Source: a virus. From it: a stretch of 51,382 nucleotides of DNA. A program made the translations under genes and the position numbers. Of this stretch, positions 29,259 through 36,262 are shown piece by piece. The notes beneath the pieces were generated by a model. The model was not told the DNA's origin. It did no database searches and worked only from the letters and a program-made list of their open reading frames with translations. The DNA lies in the IMG/VR virus record IMGVR_UViG_3300047481_002136, positions 1-51,382 of that record; one strand, 5' to 3'. Every line of letters starts with the position of its first letter. Position 1 is the first letter of the stretch.

Positions 29259-29747
29259 ATGGCAACTTTAATAGAAAATGACGAAATATTTTACACGCCG
29301 TACGAACCAAAAGTACAAAATAGGTTCATACTCACAATCGATGGTATCCCAGCGTTCTTGTGCAAAAAAGTGTCTCGTCCTCAAATTGACTGTGGTGAAG
29401 TAGTACTCGATCATATCAACCTTATACGTAAGCTTAAAGGCAAATGTAAGTGGCAAGATATCACAGTAACAATGTATGATGCAATTGTACCATCAGGAGC
29501 ACAAGCAGTAATGGAATGGGTACGTACAGCTCATGAATCAGTAACGGGTCGTGATGGCTATGCAGATTTCTACAAGAAAGATTTTGACATTACGGTTTTA
29601 GGACCAGTTGGTGACAAAGTTGAAAATTGGAAAGTTAAAGGTGCTTACATTAAGACAGCTCAATTTGGTGATATGGACTGGAGTACTGAAACACAAGTAG
29701 AGATCTCATTAACAATCGGTTTGGATTATTGTATATTGGAATACTAA
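29259..29747 (+). CDS. gp19: tail tube protein (gp19-like)
   Basis: The 162-residue protein is the same length class as T4 gp19 (163). FTYxPxxxNRF-type opening: YTPYEPKVQNRFILTIDGIP. A beta-barrel pattern follows with the block WQDITVTMYDAIVPSGAQAV, then WVRTAHESVTGRDGY, DFDITVLGPVGDKVE and WKVKGAYIKTAQFGDMDWS. It would stack as hexameric rings inside the sheath. Pairing with gp18 and a downstream terminator agree with high-level structural expression. Confidence 0.93.
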   Translation: MATLIENDEIFYTPYEPKVQNRFILTIDGIPAFLCKKVSRPQIDCGEVVLDHINLIRKLKGKCKWQDITVTMYDAIVPSGAQAVMEWVRTAHESVTGRDGYADFYKKDFDITVLGPVGDKVENWKVKGAYIKTAQFGDMDWSTETQVEISLTIGLDYCILEY

Positions 29748-29774: not shown

Positions 29775-29810
29775 AAACTCCTACAATATTTTGTGGGAGT
29801 TTTCTTTTTA
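29775..29810 (+). terminator. intrinsic terminator after the tube gene
   Basis: A twelve-base stem (29775-29786 with 29791-29802, one G-T pair) has loop TATT and is followed by TTTTCTTTTTA. It lies 27 bases after the tube stop. Confidence 0.92.
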
Positions 29811-29852
29811 TATATGTTGCTAGTGTGGTATATATTTAGTATATTACATATT

Positions 29853-30263
29853 ATGAATCTACTATTACCACTTATCTTTTTAGGACTAGCAGCAATGTCC
29901 AAGTCGTGTATGGATGTGTTTATTACCCAATCTAAATGGGAAAAAACAATATTTAAACCAATAGTATATAAAACTAAAAATAAATTTTGGCGTAACTTTT
30001 GGAGCTATATTGACATGAGTTATGTAAATAAGTATAAAGATATTAGAAGCTTAGAACCAAAGTTTGTTGGTAGCACAACTATATTTGTGTTTTTAACTGA
30101 TGCTTGGCACTTTTTTCAGTTCCTAACATATGCATTTTTATTTATTGCAATTGTTACAAATATGCCACAATACAGTTTAATTATAGATTTTATTATTTTA
30201 CGAGTATTTTTTGGTATCACTTTTTCACTTACGTACTATTTATTAGTAGAAGAAACAAAATAA
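29853..30263 (+). CDS. membrane protein with about three to four helices
   Basis: The 136-residue protein starts at the ATG at 29853. An in-frame upstream start near 29793 would lie inside the terminator hairpin and is rejected. There is a hydrophobic N terminus (MNLLLPLIFLGLAAMSKSCM), an amphipathic stretch with KFWRNFWSYIDMS, then DAWHFFQFLTYAFLFIAIV and two more hydrophobic segments to the end. From memory, small membrane proteins with an N-terminal SK-x-x-D motif and a DAWH-type motif occur in many phages of unclear function. Its promoter region (TATATTTAGTATATTA at about 29831-29846) differs from the late octamer. The product may act at the host inner membrane. Confidence 0.65.
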   Translation: MNLLLPLIFLGLAAMSKSCMDVFITQSKWEKTIFKPIVYKTKNKFWRNFWSYIDMSYVNKYKDIRSLEPKFVGSTTIFVFLTDAWHFFQFLTYAFLFIAIVTNMPQYSLIIDFIILRVFFGITFSLTYYLLVEETK

Positions 30264-30264
30264 T

Positions 30265-30471
30265 ATGTTACAAAAGCTAAAGGATTTTTTAATAAACTGG
30301 TACATCACAAGCCCAGCAGCAGTTTATAGAGTAATATTGACACTATTCTTTTTTGCACTAGTGTTTTTACACCCTTACATAGGAACAACATCACTATTAA
30401 TTATTGTAGCTTTGTGTTTTGTAGCTGGGCTATATTACTATTTCTTTTTTGTAAATAAACCAAGAAAATAA
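30265..30471 (+). CDS. small two-helix membrane protein
   Basis: The 68-residue protein starts one base after the previous stop. It has two transmembrane helices (YRVILTLFFFALVFLH and LLIIVALCFVAGLYYYFFF) with a short loop and a basic tail KPRK. The topology is that of a class II holin or a small superinfection-type protein, but no lysis gene is adjacent, so this is speculative. It may work with the membrane protein upstream, with which it is tightly coupled. Confidence 0.6.
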   Translation: MLQKLKDFLINWYITSPAAVYRVILTLFFFALVFLHPYIGTTSLLIIVALCFVAGLYYYFFFVNKPRK

Positions 30472-30474
30472 AAC

Positions 30475-31338
30475 ATGTCGACAGTCGTAAATCAAAACTA
30501 TCCTAAGAAGGATGGTGTATTATCAGATGATGATATCAAAGCAAAAGTGATAAACGAGCTTAATACACAACAAGTAGTATCATCAAACGTACCAACAGAA
30601 GTTATATCTTTACCTTCAAAAGGTTGGTTTTATCCGGAAGGACATCCACTAGCATCAGGTAAAATAGAAATGAAGTACATGACTGCTAAAGAAGAAGATA
30701 TCCTAGCTTCACAAAACTTAATTAAACAAGGTGTTGTTATTGATCGATTATTACAATCATTAATTGTTACCCGCATTAATTACAACGATCTACTAACAAT
30801 TGATAAAAACGCCATATTCATTGCAGCTCGTATACTTGCTTATGGAAAAGACTATGAAGTTGAAATTACTTGTCCAAGCTGTGGAGAAAAATCAAAGCAT
30901 GTTATAGACTTACAAGAGTTTGATGAAAAAACAATTGATTGGTCTCTTTTTACAAAAGGACAAACAACCCATAAATTTACTTTACCAATAAGCAAAAAAA
31001 CACTTGAGTTAAAGTTTTTAACACACGGTGATGAAAAACTAATTGAAGAAGCTGTAAAAGCAAATAAAAAACTTTCTAAAATACTAGGAGTAGATCCAGA
31101 ACTAACAACAAGATTAAAACACTTGATTGTTAGTTACGATGGTGTTACTGATACAAAGGAAATTGGAAAAAGTGTTGACAATATGCTTTCACGAGATTCG
31201 CTAGCATTACGAAGTCATTTAAAAGAAGTCACACCAGATATAGATACTACTTTTAGCTTTACTTGTCCACATTGCGATTTTGTTCAAGAAAAGATGGCCT
31301 TGCCCATCGGTGTAGGGTTTTTTTGGCCTAGCCTCTAA
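30475..31338 (+). CDS. gp26: gp26-like baseplate hub / tail assembly protein (zero-frame product)
   Basis: The 287-residue protein is of the T4 gp26 family (T4 gp26 has 208). Family blocks are VISLPSKGWFYPEGHPLASG, MKYMTAKEEDILASQ and KQGVVIDRLLQSLIV. Two CPxC pairs (C133/C136 and C264/C267) could form one zinc site. It ends PIGVGFFWPSL. The seven-T run at 31318-31324 near its end, and an open +1 frame beyond, suggest a programmed frameshift extension. Tail chaperones encoded as a short and a frameshift-extended form just ahead of the tape measure are a known theme in tailed phages, and that is the arrangement here. Confidence 0.8.
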   Translation: MSTVVNQNYPKKDGVLSDDDIKAKVINELNTQQVVSSNVPTEVISLPSKGWFYPEGHPLASGKIEMKYMTAKEEDILASQNLIKQGVVIDRLLQSLIVTRINYNDLLTIDKNAIFIAARILAYGKDYEVEITCPSCGEKSKHVIDLQEFDEKTIDWSLFTKGQTTHKFTLPISKKTLELKFLTHGDEKLIEEAVKANKKLSKILGVDPELTTRLKHLIVSYDGVTDTKEIGKSVDNMLSRDSLALRSHLKEVTPDIDTTFSFTCPHCDFVQEKMALPIGVGFFWPSL

Positions 31339-31531
31339 TTATAGAGGCATTCTGCAAGATGAGATATTTGATCTCATGTACTATGGGAAAATGGGATTCA
31401 CATATACCGAGTTGTATTGTATGCCAGTTCACATCAGAAGATACTTTTACAGAAAGTTATCTGAAATAAAGAAAAAAGAGTACGAAGCAGAAAAAGCTGC
31501 TTATGAAAAAGCAAAATCTGGAAAAAGATAA
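31325..31531 (+). CDS. probable frameshift extension of the gp26-like protein
   Basis: The +1 frame is open from 31316 to the TAA at 31529-31531. After a +1 slip on TTT-T (or a -2 slip on the T run) the ribosome would add about 68 residues, starting GLASNYRGILQDEIFDLMYY and continuing through a GFTYTELYCMPVHIRRYFYR segment to a Lys/Glu/Ala-rich helix ending KSGKR. The -1 frame closes after two codons. A free-standing start is possible only at the ATG at 31376 (51 residues), which lies inside the conserved-looking part. The extension is helical, basic at the end and positioned just before the tape measure, like the second part of lambda G-T or Mu chaperones. Confidence 0.6.
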   Translation, partial: GLASNYRGILQDEIFDLMYYGKMGFTYTELYCMPVHIRRYFYRKLSEIKKKEYEAEKAAYEKAKSGKR

Positions 31532-31561
31532 TACTCTCTACTAAAAACAACAGAAAGTAAA

Positions 31562-31600
31562 AGAAAGCCAATCCTAAAAAGTTGGCTTTTTTATTTTATA
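31562..31600 (+). terminator. intrinsic terminator after the chaperone genes
   Basis: The eight-base stem AAAGCCAA / TTGGCTTT (31564-31571 with 31582-31589) has a ten-base loop and is followed by a T-rich tract. It lies 30 bases after the frameshift-extension stop, which supports that stop as the true end of the gene. Confidence 0.88.
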
Positions 31601-31628: not shown

Positions 31629-31943
31629 GTGACAAAAGAAGAATTACATAGAATTATTCAAGAAGAATTTAAAAATGAAATTATGTTAGAAGGTATAACA
31701 AGCTGGCTCGTAGATAAAGTAGCTAGTGGATTCAAATCGTATGTAAATAAAAAAACGGGATACCAATACGATGCATTGGTAAACGACAAAGAATTTAAAA
31801 GCTTAGCATCTAAGTATGGTTATAAAGATGAGGAGCAATGGGCAAAAAAAGCAAGAGAGCTTATTAACAAAGATCCAAAAAGATTTGCAGACATACTAGC
31901 GTACGATGTAAAAAAAGGTGCGTTTGGTAAATATTACAAGTAA
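31629..31943 (+). CDS. small protein with a targeting-like N terminus
   Basis: The 104-residue protein starts at GTG and begins MTKEELHRIIQEEFKNEIML, a helix with I-Q-E, closely like the starts of the genes at 40745 and 48501. The rest is helical and basic (WLVDKVASGFKSYVNKKTGY; LASKYGYKDEEQWAKKAREL) and ends VKKGAFGKYYK. It has its own late-type element and sits two bases before the tape measure. It could be an internal head protein or a tail-lumen protein. The shared helix favours the first. Confidence 0.6.
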   Translation: MTKEELHRIIQEEFKNEIMLEGITSWLVDKVASGFKSYVNKKTGYQYDALVNDKEFKSLASKYGYKDEEQWAKKARELINKDPKRFADILAYDVKKGAFGKYYK

Positions 31944-31945
31944 AA

Positions 31946-34279
31946 ATGAAATTAGAAGATTATTTACCAAAAGATCTGGTTAATGAAATAGCTAAGATGA
32001 TGGCAGCAGGTATTAAAAAGGGAGCCAAAGAAGGCTTCACTGCTGGAAATTTTTTGGGAGATCTTCAAGATCAGATGGATCAATTTGCTAAAGATCAACA
32101 GGCATATCTCATCAACGAAAAGGTTAAACAAAGATCCTTAGATAAGACACTAGATGTCAGAGAAATCGAGCTCGATGTGTTGAAGGAGACGGCTATTGAG
32201 CAAAATAAAAGTATAATCCAAGACCTAAAGGCACTAGCCGTAACGCAAAAAAGAGCAATAGTGTACGCTCAGCTACAAGGAAATATGCAAGCTTTCTACC
32301 AAGCACTGTTTGATTTAGATGAAACAGAAAAACAAATTGGAAGCTTACATAAACAGAATAATTTATTAGAAATTGCAACAAAAGAGCGTAAAAAACAACT
32401 CAAAATACAAATAGATCAAGAAAAACAACAAAAGTTAGAAGAACAGAGATCAGAAAAAATAAAAGAACTAGAGGAAAAGCGTAAAGAGATTTTAGATAAA
32501 ATAGGAGTTAATACAAGCTTAATTAAAGACTTTTTGCAAGGTGGTGTAGCTAGAACACTAGCTATAACAATAGCTGCAGAAAAGATGGGTGAAGCTTTTG
32601 GTGAAGCTTTCAAAGAACTGCAAGGAGAAGGATTATCAGCAACACAAGCTGCACACGAAGCAATGACTTCATTTACCGACTCCATGAAGACTGGATTCTT
32701 GGCATCATCTGAAGAAATACGAAAGGCAAGAGCGGCAGTAATGGAAACAGGAGGCACACTGCACGATGCTGAAGAGGCAGGTAAAGGAGCAGCAATGATG
32801 GCTAAAGTTTACGGAGGTAGCTTAGAAGATGCAGGTAAAGCCATAGGAAATTTACAAAAGATTCCAGGCGTAATGAAAGAATCAGCTCAGAGTACAGCTG
32901 AGTTTGGAGCCAAATTATCAATAGCAGCAGGAGTACCAGCCGATACAGCAACAAAAGCAATTGCTAATAATATGGATGCAGTTGCAAAAGCAGGTCCAAC
33001 TATGGTAAAAAGCTTTCAAGTTGCTGCAATAAATGCTAAAAAAATAGGTGTTGAGTTTTCTGTTATAACTGGAATGGCTGATAAGTTGCTGGATTTTGAA
33101 AATAGCATTAATGCTCAAATGGAAGCAAGTGTAATGTTAGGAAAACAAATAAATCTTGACAAAGCAAGAGAAGCTGCGTTAAATGGTGATTACTTAACGG
33201 TACAAAAAGAAATACTCAAACAAGTTGGATCGGAGGCTGAATTCACAAGAATGAACGTACTGCAAAAACAAAAACTTGCAGAAGCAATCGGTGTGAGTGT
33301 ACCTGATTTAGCCAAGATGGTGAAAGGTCAAGGAGAGTTGTCAGATGGTACTAAGTTAGAAGCTGAGGCAAGAAGTAAAGTTAGTGAAGGGCTTGAAACT
33401 AGTGTAGCCTTTATGTCTAAATATTCGGGAGCAGTTGGAGCATTAGTGGGTGGTGTGATAAGTGCTATACCACAATTTATGACTTTCAATGCTATGAAAA
33501 AATTAAATAGCACACTCACAGGTGAAAATACCATCTCACAAAATACAAATTCCGGAGCAATAAATAGAAATAGTTTATCCATGCAACGAGCTGGTTTAAT
33601 GGCAAAAGGCGCAGCAACAAGCATGCTAGCTTTTGGAGGAGCTGTGTTAATGATTGGAGGAGGTATTGCACTTGCTACATTAGGTATAGCACAACTGGCA
33701 GAAGCAATGAAGGGTTTATCACTTCCTGAATTTATAGGTTTAGCAGCTATACTTATAGGTATAGGTGTAGGAATATACTTTTTAGCAACCGCAACAGCCA
33801 CCGCGGCACCATTACTGTTTACAGGAGGTACGGCATTACTTTACTTTGGTGGAGGACTTGCATTAATAGGCCTTGGCATAGGCATAGCTGCAGCAGGAAT
33901 GGCTTTGTTTGTAAACTCAATAGGAAATCTAGCTAATGAAGAGGTTGTTAAAAATTTATATGGAGTTGGAGGTGGTTTATTTTACATAGCAAAAGCATTA
34001 GGTGCAGTAGCTCTAGGTAGTGTAGCAGTACCAACATTGGGAGTTATAAAGAGTCTTGGATTGAGTGGTATAGGTGAACAAGAACCATTGAGTGGTATAG
34101 GTGAACAAGAACCTAAGACAGAAGAAGGTCAGTTTAGCGTTTTACAAAAAGGAGTGGATGACTTAAATAGTACGATGATTGAGATAAAAAAGATAATATC
34201 AAAGGGTAGCAAAGTTGTTATAGATTCAAAAGTTCTTGGTGAAATCATAGCCAATCAAATGCAACTTAAAACATCATAA
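31946..34279 (+). CDS. tail tape measure protein
   Basis: The 777-residue protein has an N-terminal half that is long helical and coiled-coil (about residues 50-190, Gln/Lys/Glu-rich). A helical middle (about 200-480) contains repeated Ala-rich segments (EAFGEAFKELQGEGLSATQA). The C-terminal region at about 559-658 is strongly hydrophobic with Gly-rich membrane-like helices (AFGGAVLMIGGGIALATLGI; LAAILIGIGVGIYFLATA). This combination, placed after the chaperone and before baseplate genes, is typical of tape measures that set tail length and help DNA cross the inner membrane. T4 gp29 is 590 residues. Near the end SGIGEQEP occurs twice in tandem. Confidence 0.8.
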   Translation: MKLEDYLPKDLVNEIAKMMAAGIKKGAKEGFTAGNFLGDLQDQMDQFAKDQQAYLINEKVKQRSLDKTLDVREIELDVLKETAIEQNKSIIQDLKALAVTQKRAIVYAQLQGNMQAFYQALFDLDETEKQIGSLHKQNNLLEIATKERKKQLKIQIDQEKQQKLEEQRSEKIKELEEKRKEILDKIGVNTSLIKDFLQGGVARTLAITIAAEKMGEAFGEAFKELQGEGLSATQAAHEAMTSFTDSMKTGFLASSEEIRKARAAVMETGGTLHDAEEAGKGAAMMAKVYGGSLEDAGKAIGNLQKIPGVMKESAQSTAEFGAKLSIAAGVPADTATKAIANNMDAVAKAGPTMVKSFQVAAINAKKIGVEFSVITGMADKLLDFENSINAQMEASVMLGKQINLDKAREAALNGDYLTVQKEILKQVGSEAEFTRMNVLQKQKLAEAIGVSVPDLAKMVKGQGELSDGTKLEAEARSKVSEGLETSVAFMSKYSGAVGALVGGVISAIPQFMTFNAMKKLNSTLTGENTISQNTNSGAINRNSLSMQRAGLMAKGAATSMLAFGGAVLMIGGGIALATLGIAQLAEAMKGLSLPEFIGLAAILIGIGVGIYFLATATATAAPLLFTGGTALLYFGGGLALIGLGIGIAAAGMALFVNSIGNLANEEVVKNLYGVGGGLFYIAKALGAVALGSVAVPTLGVIKSLGLSGIGEQEPLSGIGEQEPKTEEGQFSVLQKGVDDLNSTMIEIKKIISKGSKVVIDSKVLGEIIANQMQLKTS

Positions 34280-34297
34280 CATAAATACCACACAAAA

Positions 34298-36262
34298 GTG
34301 AATAAACCGTTTAAACATATAAGCTTAATTGAAAGGTATAAAACTAGTGGATTAGGTATTAACACAAACCCAACAACAACAAAACAAAGTCCTACACCAA
34401 CTATAACACCAATTAAGTACACACCTAACCAAGGTAGTACAACAATAGGTTTATTTAATTTTACTCCAACACAAGGTAGTACAACACCAAAACCCTTTAT
34501 TATATTTCCTAGTCAAGGCGGAGTAATACCTAAAACTTTTTTGTTTAAACCACAATACACAACACCGACAATAAGATATGACTTTCCAGATCAACTAAGT
34601 TTAAAAGATAGAGTAGAACAAAGAAATTTAGGAACAACAAAGCACTTACCACAATTCTTTTTATCGGATGTTTATACCGATTACATAAAGATTGTACCCT
34701 TTGGAATATTTAATCACACAAGCACAATTGTAGTAAAACCCTTTGGTATTTTTGAACACACAAGTGATACTATTGTTAATTCCTTTGGTATTTTTACACA
34801 CACAAGTGATGTAATTACCATACCATTTGGTATTTTTACACACACAAGTAATATAATAGTAACAACCCCAATACAAGACGTAAGTGGGTTACAAGGTATA
34901 GTAGTGTTACCAAATGGTGTAGCACCAACAAATTCATTTATTGTTTTAAGTACACCAACACCATTAATACAAAGTCCATCACCGGAAATAGATCTTTTTA
35001 ATTTCACACCAAATCAAGGTAGTGTTATTATTAATACTATTAATTTTACACCTAACCAAGGTAGTACAACTGTAGATGCTTTTGACTTTACACCTAACCA
35101 AGGTAGTACAACTGTGAGTTTATTTGACTTTACTCCAGAACAAGGTGGTGTACAATATAAAAACTTTATTGTTAAAGTAAAGCAGTATGATCCAAATGTC
35201 AAATTTGAGTTGTTTAACTTTGTGCCTGAATACAACACTATACAAATTAAAACCGTCAGATACACAGCTGACAGGTTATTAGCAACGGTAACACCAAAGA
35301 TAAAACACGGTAGTGCTGATTTACCATACTCCATGTTTGAACCAGATAAAGGTAAGGAAGATCAAGACCCAGGAATACTATTCACCGAAATTAAGAAAGC
35401 AGAACAACAAGCTCAACGAGATATACTAATAAGAGGTAGGGATAAAGAAACTTCTTACAAAACAGTAAGTACTGCATTAAATTTAAAATATAAAGCAACA
35501 AAATTAGATTTTGAAGACTTTGGTTATAAAACAACTAATCAAGAGCAGTTAGAGGATTTACGAAAACGAGCTGATGATAATTTTGATTTCAAAGATTTTA
35601 GAGAAAGTTTAGAAGCTGATTTTGTTCCTACCTTCAATACAAATCCAAGTAGGTTTATTATCAAGTATATTGATAATATTAAACCATCAGAGGTTATAGA
35701 AAAGTACGGCACAGTAGACCAAAGAAAAAAAGATCCAGATACAGCAAATCCGGATTTAATTGATTTTATAATAGGATCTAGACGGAACTCAGATCAAACG
35801 GTCCAATTTACAGCATACTTAACCACTTTTGGTCACACCATAACCCCAAACTGGAGTGATATAAACTACGTAGGTCGTCAAGATACTTTGAGAGCTTTTA
35901 AGGGCGTAACACAAGGTGTATCATTAGGTTTTATAACAGTCGCCTTTGATAAAGAAGATATGCCAAAAATGTATGACAAACTAACAAAATTAGCTAGAAT
36001 AACATCCTTTGGTGAACCAGCAGGCACATACTTAAAAGGACCTGCTTGTGACATAACAGTTGGAAAGTGGTTTGTTAAAACCCCTTGCATATTTACAAAT
36101 GTAAAATACGATATAGAAACAGCTGAGTATCCTTGGGATATTGATAGAGATATACAAATGCCACATTATATTAGAGTGAGTCTTGAAGTAGTATTACTTG
36201 GAGATAATAAAGGAGAACCACTAGGAGCTAATCCAAAAATATTTAATTACGGAAACGATTAG
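34298..36262 (+). CDS. baseplate protein with 14-residue repeats in its N-terminal half
   Basis: The 654-residue protein starts at GTG. The N-terminal half contains three arrays of 14-residue units: type A around F-x-F-T-P-N-Q-G-S-T-T (residues 38-93 and 233-288) and type B around P-F-G-I-F-x-H-T-S (134-189). A linker of charged helices follows (about 350-460). The C-terminal 190 residues are a conserved domain with IDFIIGSRRNSDQTVQFTAY, WSDINYVGRQDTLRAFKGVT and YPWDIDRDIQMPHYIRVSLE. I associate this with a baseplate or tube-connector protein of T4-like environmental phages. The pairing with a gp53-like gene downstream agrees. Confidence 0.65.
   Translation: MNKPFKHISLIERYKTSGLGINTNPTTTKQSPTPTITPIKYTPNQGSTTIGLFNFTPTQGSTTPKPFIIFPSQGGVIPKTFLFKPQYTTPTIRYDFPDQLSLKDRVEQRNLGTTKHLPQFFLSDVYTDYIKIVPFGIFNHTSTIVVKPFGIFEHTSDTIVNSFGIFTHTSDVITIPFGIFTHTSNIIVTTPIQDVSGLQGIVVLPNGVAPTNSFIVLSTPTPLIQSPSPEIDLFNFTPNQGSVIINTINFTPNQGSTTVDAFDFTPNQGSTTVSLFDFTPEQGGVQYKNFIVKVKQYDPNVKFELFNFVPEYNTIQIKTVRYTADRLLATVTPKIKHGSADLPYSMFEPDKGKEDQDPGILFTEIKKAEQQAQRDILIRGRDKETSYKTVSTALNLKYKATKLDFEDFGYKTTNQEQLEDLRKRADDNFDFKDFRESLEADFVPTFNTNPSRFIIKYIDNIKPSEVIEKYGTVDQRKKDPDTANPDLIDFIIGSRRNSDQTVQFTAYLTTFGHTITPNWSDINYVGRQDTLRAFKGVTQGVSLGFITVAFDKEDMPKMYDKLTKLARITSFGEPAGTYLKGPACDITVGKWFVKTPCIFTNVKYDIETAEYPWDIDRDIQMPHYIRVSLEVVLLGDNKGEPLGANPKIFNYGND
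34409..35161 (+). repeat. 42-base coding repeats in three arrays
   Basis: Arrays of four units each lie at 34409-34576, 34697-34864 and 34994-35161, each unit 42 bases (14 codons). The unit at 35036-35077 and the next differ by few bases, so recent slippage or unequal exchange is likely there, while the outer units have drifted. Confidence 0.85.

Follow-up and report, generated by a model that had tools for sequence, protein, structure and literature searches.

A conserved, probably programmed frameshift with a favored +1 direction in a putative gp26/gp51-type tail chaperone gene of a tailed virus

The window analyzed here is the complete 51,382-nucleotide stretch of the IMG/VR virus record IMGVR_UViG_3300047481_002136, and Table 1 collects the features around the locus of interest. 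This locus contains a gene whose product matches PF12322 (T4_baseplate, gp26/gp51-type) over residues 59 to 271, with an E value of 1.9e-14 and a score of 54.3 bits that is well above the curated cutoff of 24.5 bits, as well as phrog_150, annotated as baseplate hub (E value of 1.4e-18). This gene is placed between the tail tube gene and a tape-measure-like gene, the position characteristic of a tail assembly chaperone pair; the latter gene was recognized by its location and by BLASTP, in which 105 residues matched the protein annotated as tape measure in Flavobacterium phage immuto (E value of 3e-15). The order of tail tube, chaperone, and tape measure is identical in the phages SP-15, immuto, and LIS04. 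The initial annotation had put the chaperone gene ahead of the tape measure; it is indeed upstream, but a 104-amino-acid open reading frame (ORF) at 31629 to 31943, with no match in Pfam or PHROG, separates the extension from the tape-measure-like gene. The terminator proposed after the stop of the extension was found as a terminator-like stem.

Table 1. Coordinates of the features discussed in the text (positions within the window)
Feature	Position	Strand	Evidence or remark
Tail tube gene (context)	29259..29747	+	phrog_4542 tail tube, E 6.8e-27
Zero-frame gene, 287 aa, putative TAC-N/gp26-type chaperone, short product	30475..31338	+	PF12322, phrog_150
Predicted frameshift product TAC-NC, 351 aa	30475..31531	+	Read through skipping one base
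Putative slip site: non-U G31317, UUU 31318-31320, U31321; second UUU 31321-31323, then U31324	31317..31324	+	
+1-frame extension, 68 aa, TAC-C-like domain, including stop	31325..31531	+	Conservation, substitution pattern, predicted fold
RNA hairpin, 7 bp, 4-nt loop, overlapping the zero-frame stop	31331..31348	+	Covariation
Terminator-like stem 3' of the stop of the extension	31561..31592	+	
Tape-measure-like gene, 777 aa	31946..34279	+	BLASTP match, position

Other elements were observed in the same region. The interval from the tail tube gene to the chaperone gene contains two short hydrophobic ORFs of 156 and 68 amino acids (29793 to 30471), with a strong terminator-like stem (29775 to 29802) ahead of them. 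Near the end of the tape-measure-like gene there is a perfect 27-bp tandem repeat (34060 to 34113), and the gene next to it (34298 to 36262) contains degenerate 42-bp repeats (34696 to 35146), which together yield repeated FTPNQGSTT and FGIFTHTS motifs.

The last codons of the zero-frame gene are GTA GGG TTT TTT TGG CCT AGC CTC TAA, with a run of seven T at 31318 to 31324, and the coordinates of the initial annotation all agreed with direct reading. The frame that would be entered by a +1 or a -2 shift continues behind the run as GGC CTA GCC and is closed on its 5' side by a TAG three codons before GGC. It contains no ATG, GTG, or TTG before an ATG at 31376, in line with the claim that it has no good start of its own, and initiation at this ATG would lose the conserved first 17 residues of the extension. 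The -1 frame of the window closes after two codons, as had been stated, and does the same in 99 of the 119 relatives, and a -1 shift of the lambda type (X XXY YYZ) was thus rejected for the window. By itself, the motif TTTTTTTGG is unremarkable (2.3 occurrences expected in the window and 1 found); judged across the sequences compared, its conservation, combined with an open coding frame downstream, goes beyond chance.

Relatives were gathered by scanning IMG/VR, where the best 80 of at least several hundred were kept, and by further scans with other family members. Among the matches listed, 119 of the 121 distinct loci in which both parts could be placed had the extension in the +1/-2 frame relative to the gp26-type gene. 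The slip codons of these 119 loci were TTT TTT TGG (77 loci), TTT CTT TGG (27), TTC TTT TGG (8), and TTT CTA TGG (3), plus one locus each with TTT TTT TAC, CTT TTT TGG, TTT CTA TTC, and TTT CTT TAC, and the next codon was always CCT. Every one of them had a zero-frame UUU (once CUU) preceded by a base other than U and followed by U or C. The same frame relation, the nearly fixed slip site, and the conserved extension strongly support the earlier proposal of a programmed shift into the +1/-2 frame, and the suggested comparison with related phages recovered the T run with both frames, with all seven T in 77 of the 119 loci. A single unbroken frame, one of the two outcomes that would have contradicted the proposal, was never seen among the relatives; the other, two independent genes, appeared only in a derived clade of two members (L183 and L188) and in the T4 paralogues. 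A scan of genome contigs added two sequences (L308 and L309), both with a seven-T site identical to that of the window. These contigs are filed as bacterial metagenome-assembled genomes, one of them Flavobacteriales, but their seven-T chaperone gene makes it probable that both are of phage origin and were binned together with the host.

Codon usage at the slip site was unusually constrained. On a tree of 111 rows, synonymous changes occurred once in the first slip codon and never in the second, versus 5 to 31 in the other two-fold columns. The proline codon of the slip site was CCT in 109 of 109 sequences with no changes, while five other proline columns changed 24 to 40 times; this fixity is partly due to the last two bases of CCT encoding a conserved leucine in the +1 frame. 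For the phenylalanine codons of the slip site, overlap with +1-frame coding does not appear to explain the constraint fully. The base before the UUU run was also biased: Asn, Ser, and Asp codons at this position ended in C in 50 cases and in T in none, against a background in the same genes of 3229 T to 1180 C. A T before the run was found only in part of the TTC-TTT clade, where slippage would occur on the second codon, which has a C before it.

The extension was conserved across 46 aligned relatives, and differences between close pairs fell on the first, second, and third codon positions of the +1 frame in the ratio 3366:1688:6757, i.e., it evolves as a protein in that frame, with change mostly at third positions. 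Its predicted fold was a three-helix domain (pLDDT of 90.6) that, alone, had no significant match among viral folds (best E value of 0.043). The extension often has no start of its own, 44 of the 119 relatives lacking even a GTG or TTG through codon 10. A conserved C-terminal segment that lies in another frame and lacks its own start is also a mark of tail assembly chaperone pairs. The short form was predicted to adopt a mixed domain (pLDDT of 87.8), with a baseplate hub subunit of Bacillus phage SP-15 as its best viral structural match (E value of 8e-19). No sequence relative was found among solved structures, and a fold search of the PDB gave nothing below an E value of 0.001, the chaperone of HK97 (2ob9) being a weak match (E value of 1.5; TM score of 0.44 on the target). 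The two predicted products fit the TAC-N and TAC-NC tail assembly chaperones. Public annotations treat the out-of-frame extension as an independent short gene that starts internally in L085 (4812 to 4931), L088 (4899 to 5054), L207 (1602 to 1784), and L208 (2256 to 2399).

Within the window's clade, a hairpin begins 6 nt past the T run. Over 33 sequences, its stem had 23 double-change cells versus 9.3 ± 2.9 in shuffled alignments and 7 or fewer in slid controls. The stem of the window itself differs on both sides, pairing CCTC with GAGG, where most relatives pair GGCC or GGTC with GGCC. On the same alignment, RNAalifold returned a weak four-pair consensus. Mean local folding energy at the hairpin was -11.7 kcal/mol, compared with ca. 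-2 to -5 kcal/mol over most of the surrounding sequence. This peak was absent at the corresponding position in the other clades, and the hairpin was discarded as a general signal; one clade probably acquired it as a stimulator. Column counts of the slip-site loci were also searched for a conserved upstream Shine-Dalgarno-like stimulator, and none stood out.

By these comparisons, the arrangement is real and conserved, and it very likely represents a programmed frameshift. The reading that we consider likely is that two tail chaperones are made from one start, the long form by a +1 slip of tRNA-Phe on UUU. Most ribosomes would terminate at the zero-frame stop and release the short form, TAC-N, while a minority would slip forward with tRNA-Phe in the P site on the first UUU (or on the second). 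The anticodon would re-pair with the overlapping UUU one base downstream and decoding would continue into GGC, giving the long form, TAC-NC, with its helical C-terminal domain. A base other than U before UUU would block the usual backward slip, and in the window's clade, the hairpin would probably slow ribosome movement. If the two products work like lambda G and GT, the tape measure protein would be coated with the short form, and tail tube subunits would be brought in through the extension.

The initial annotation had left the direction as either +1 or -2. The shared target frame stands, and of the two directions, +1 is favored on account of variant sites without -2 re-pairing and of the avoidance of U before UUU. 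At the seven-T run of the window, both re-pairings are possible, and slippage by -2 on the second UUU, with the 3' hairpin of the window's clade as its stimulator and the G/GT counterpart of phage Mu as its parallel, would agree with the retention of all seven T in 77 of 119 loci, with the covarying hairpin 6 to 7 nt downstream, and with the precedent of Mu (PMC5009743). At this distance, a hairpin would be expected more for a backward shift, which is a point against +1. However, -2 re-pairing fails in homologues with the same frame relation, namely, TTC-TTT-TGG (eight loci in one clade, L173 to L182), TTC-TTT-CGT of Streptococcus phage GXN1, and CTG/CTA-TTT-C in 13 Streptomyces-type loci (e.g., CTG-TTT-CGC), and all of these let tRNA-Phe advance by one base from UUU onto UUU or UUC. 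Re-pairing of the P-site codon in +1 is possible in all 119 loci and in SP-15, LIS04, GXN1, RM378, and the 13 Streptomyces-type loci. The tree gives three origins for TTT-CTA-TGG, a variant that agrees with +1 slippage at the first UUU. In addition, a -2 slip on the second UUU gives no reason for avoiding U before the first, and the hairpin is absent from most seven-T clades, so we regard -2 as improbable, although it is the strongest competitor of the +1 slip.

The remaining explanations dispense with ribosomal slippage. RNA polymerase could slip on the T run and produce mRNA that lacks one U or has two extra U and that ribosomes read straight through, a known alternative (PMC5009743) for which the seven-T homopolymer would be suited, but the frame relation is kept where the run is interrupted (TTTCTTT in 27 loci, TTTCTA, and CTGTTTC), and the RNA hairpin, like the avoidance of a U 5' of the run, speaks for an event on the ribosome. 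Transcriptional slippage is thus disfavored, and we consider it very unlikely. Less probable still is independent translation of the extension as a small gene of its own from an internal or weak start, the view of most annotators (SP15_046, LuckySocke 91, and BRock gp135). Such genes do exist: in L183 and L188, which form one derived clade on the tree, the extension is an ATG-started gene directly after the zero-frame stop, and in T4, genes 26 and 51 are distinct. Nevertheless, the split forms L183 and L188 have lost the slip site (TTC TTG TAT CCT and TTC CTT TGG CCA), the conserved part of the extension starts at the slip site (GL..Y), ahead of any start in the window, and the synonymous constraint on the slip codons would be left unexplained; independent initiation, seen only in those two relatives, is disfavored. 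Finally, the homopolymer at the junction invites the idea that a sequencing error split one gene, yet the same split is found in more than 100 independent contigs or isolates, including isolates without a long homopolymer, and this general occurrence refutes it, leaving it the least credible of all.

In more distantly related family members, the shift is predicted to be -1. The loci related to Methylophilales phage Melnitz (Kyanoviridae) had T_TTT_TTN in 60 of 60 distinct loci, and the -1 frame was open for 36 to 66 codons past the zero-frame stop in all but one of them. A T before TTT with an open -1 frame was also present in XacN1, RAS14, Phosso, PA5oct, Atu_ph07, PBECO4, CBB, and LR756511, so that every -1 member examined had U_UUU_UUN. 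On a tree of 23 representatives, there were about two changes of direction (bootstrap range of 2 to 3), with LR756511 nested among +1 members. We give an even chance to the idea that one base sets the direction, UUU without a 5' U and followed by U or C leading to +1 and U_UUU_UUN to -1. The rule is consistent in all members examined and rests on few independent switches because direction is clustered on the tree. If true, phages could switch direction by altering the base before the run along with the frame of the extension, and one clade would have added a 3' hairpin to a +1 site. Signals for +1 slippage in bacteria are poorly defined, with no general motif known (PRFect, PMC10885494), and in this chaperone family nature provides many +1 and -1 sites on one protein, with a simple, checkable rule. 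The finding also corrects annotations, in which the extension usually figures as a small gene of its own (SP-15, LuckySocke, BRock, and Melnitz).

The finding is ordinary in its theme and unusual in its direction. Frameshifting in tail chaperone genes is well known, and -1, -2, and +1 shifts have all been reported (PMC5009743). In lambda, G and its -1-frameshift-extended form GT serve the tape measure and tail tube proteins (PMC5009743); as in the window, a short and an extended chaperone come from one start, but lambda slips -1, whereas the window would slip into the +1/-2 frame at UUU. Phage Mu (-2) and the haloarchaeal HSTV-2 (very likely +1) (PMC5009743) make their chaperone pairs via the same target frame as the window, although the shift of Mu is -2 and the slip sites of both are different. 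The chaperones of Vandenendeviridae and Andersonviridae (phage Adele) resemble the window in belonging to contractile-tail phages, in their T-rich slip site, and in an extension that annotators had called a separate ORF, but they shift -1 at GTTTTT (PMC12846349). That paper cites Vladimirov et al. (doi 10.1016/j.virol.2021.11.003) for polyT -1 signals (PMC12846349). Slippage of +1 at UUU_C has a precedent in influenza A PA-X (UCC UUU CGU; PMC8310308), which shares with the Streptomyces-type and immuto-type sites a UUU followed by C and differs in its eukaryotic ribosome and unrelated protein.

A further comparison is with T4, whose gp26 (208 amino acids) and gp51 (249 amino acids) are both full members of PF12322. 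The gp51 protein matches the gp26 profile with an E value of 2e-22 and is gp26-like with ca. 48 additional C-terminal residues, gp26 ending where this extension starts. The extension of the window type aligns best, weakly, to positions 220 to 252 of the gp51 profile (E values of 0.003 to 0.014, versus 0.19 to 0.23 for the reversed null). Vladimirov, Gautam and Davidson reportedly identified the tail assembly chaperone genes of T4-like phages in 2022, and they are also reported to describe frameshifting as retained in several groups of T4-like phages. In T4, gp26 and gp51 are both catalogued as chaperones of hub assembly, the latter being needed although the particle does not contain it (PMC3004832). 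The PRFect paper, which cites Vladimirov et al., notes that some T4-like phages do without frameshifting and carry two genes, a short one and a longer one that is the fused copy (PMC10885494), and a 2016 review considered G-T frameshifting conserved in long-tailed phages except T4 (PMC5009743). What may be new here is the +1 direction in the PF12322 chaperone family, the flanking-base rule, and the hairpin. T4 has two separate genes, whereas the window has one gene with a probable frameshift, and as relatives of gp26/gp51 keep the frameshift, many apparently in the less common +1 direction, the arrangement of T4 looks like one of several solutions.
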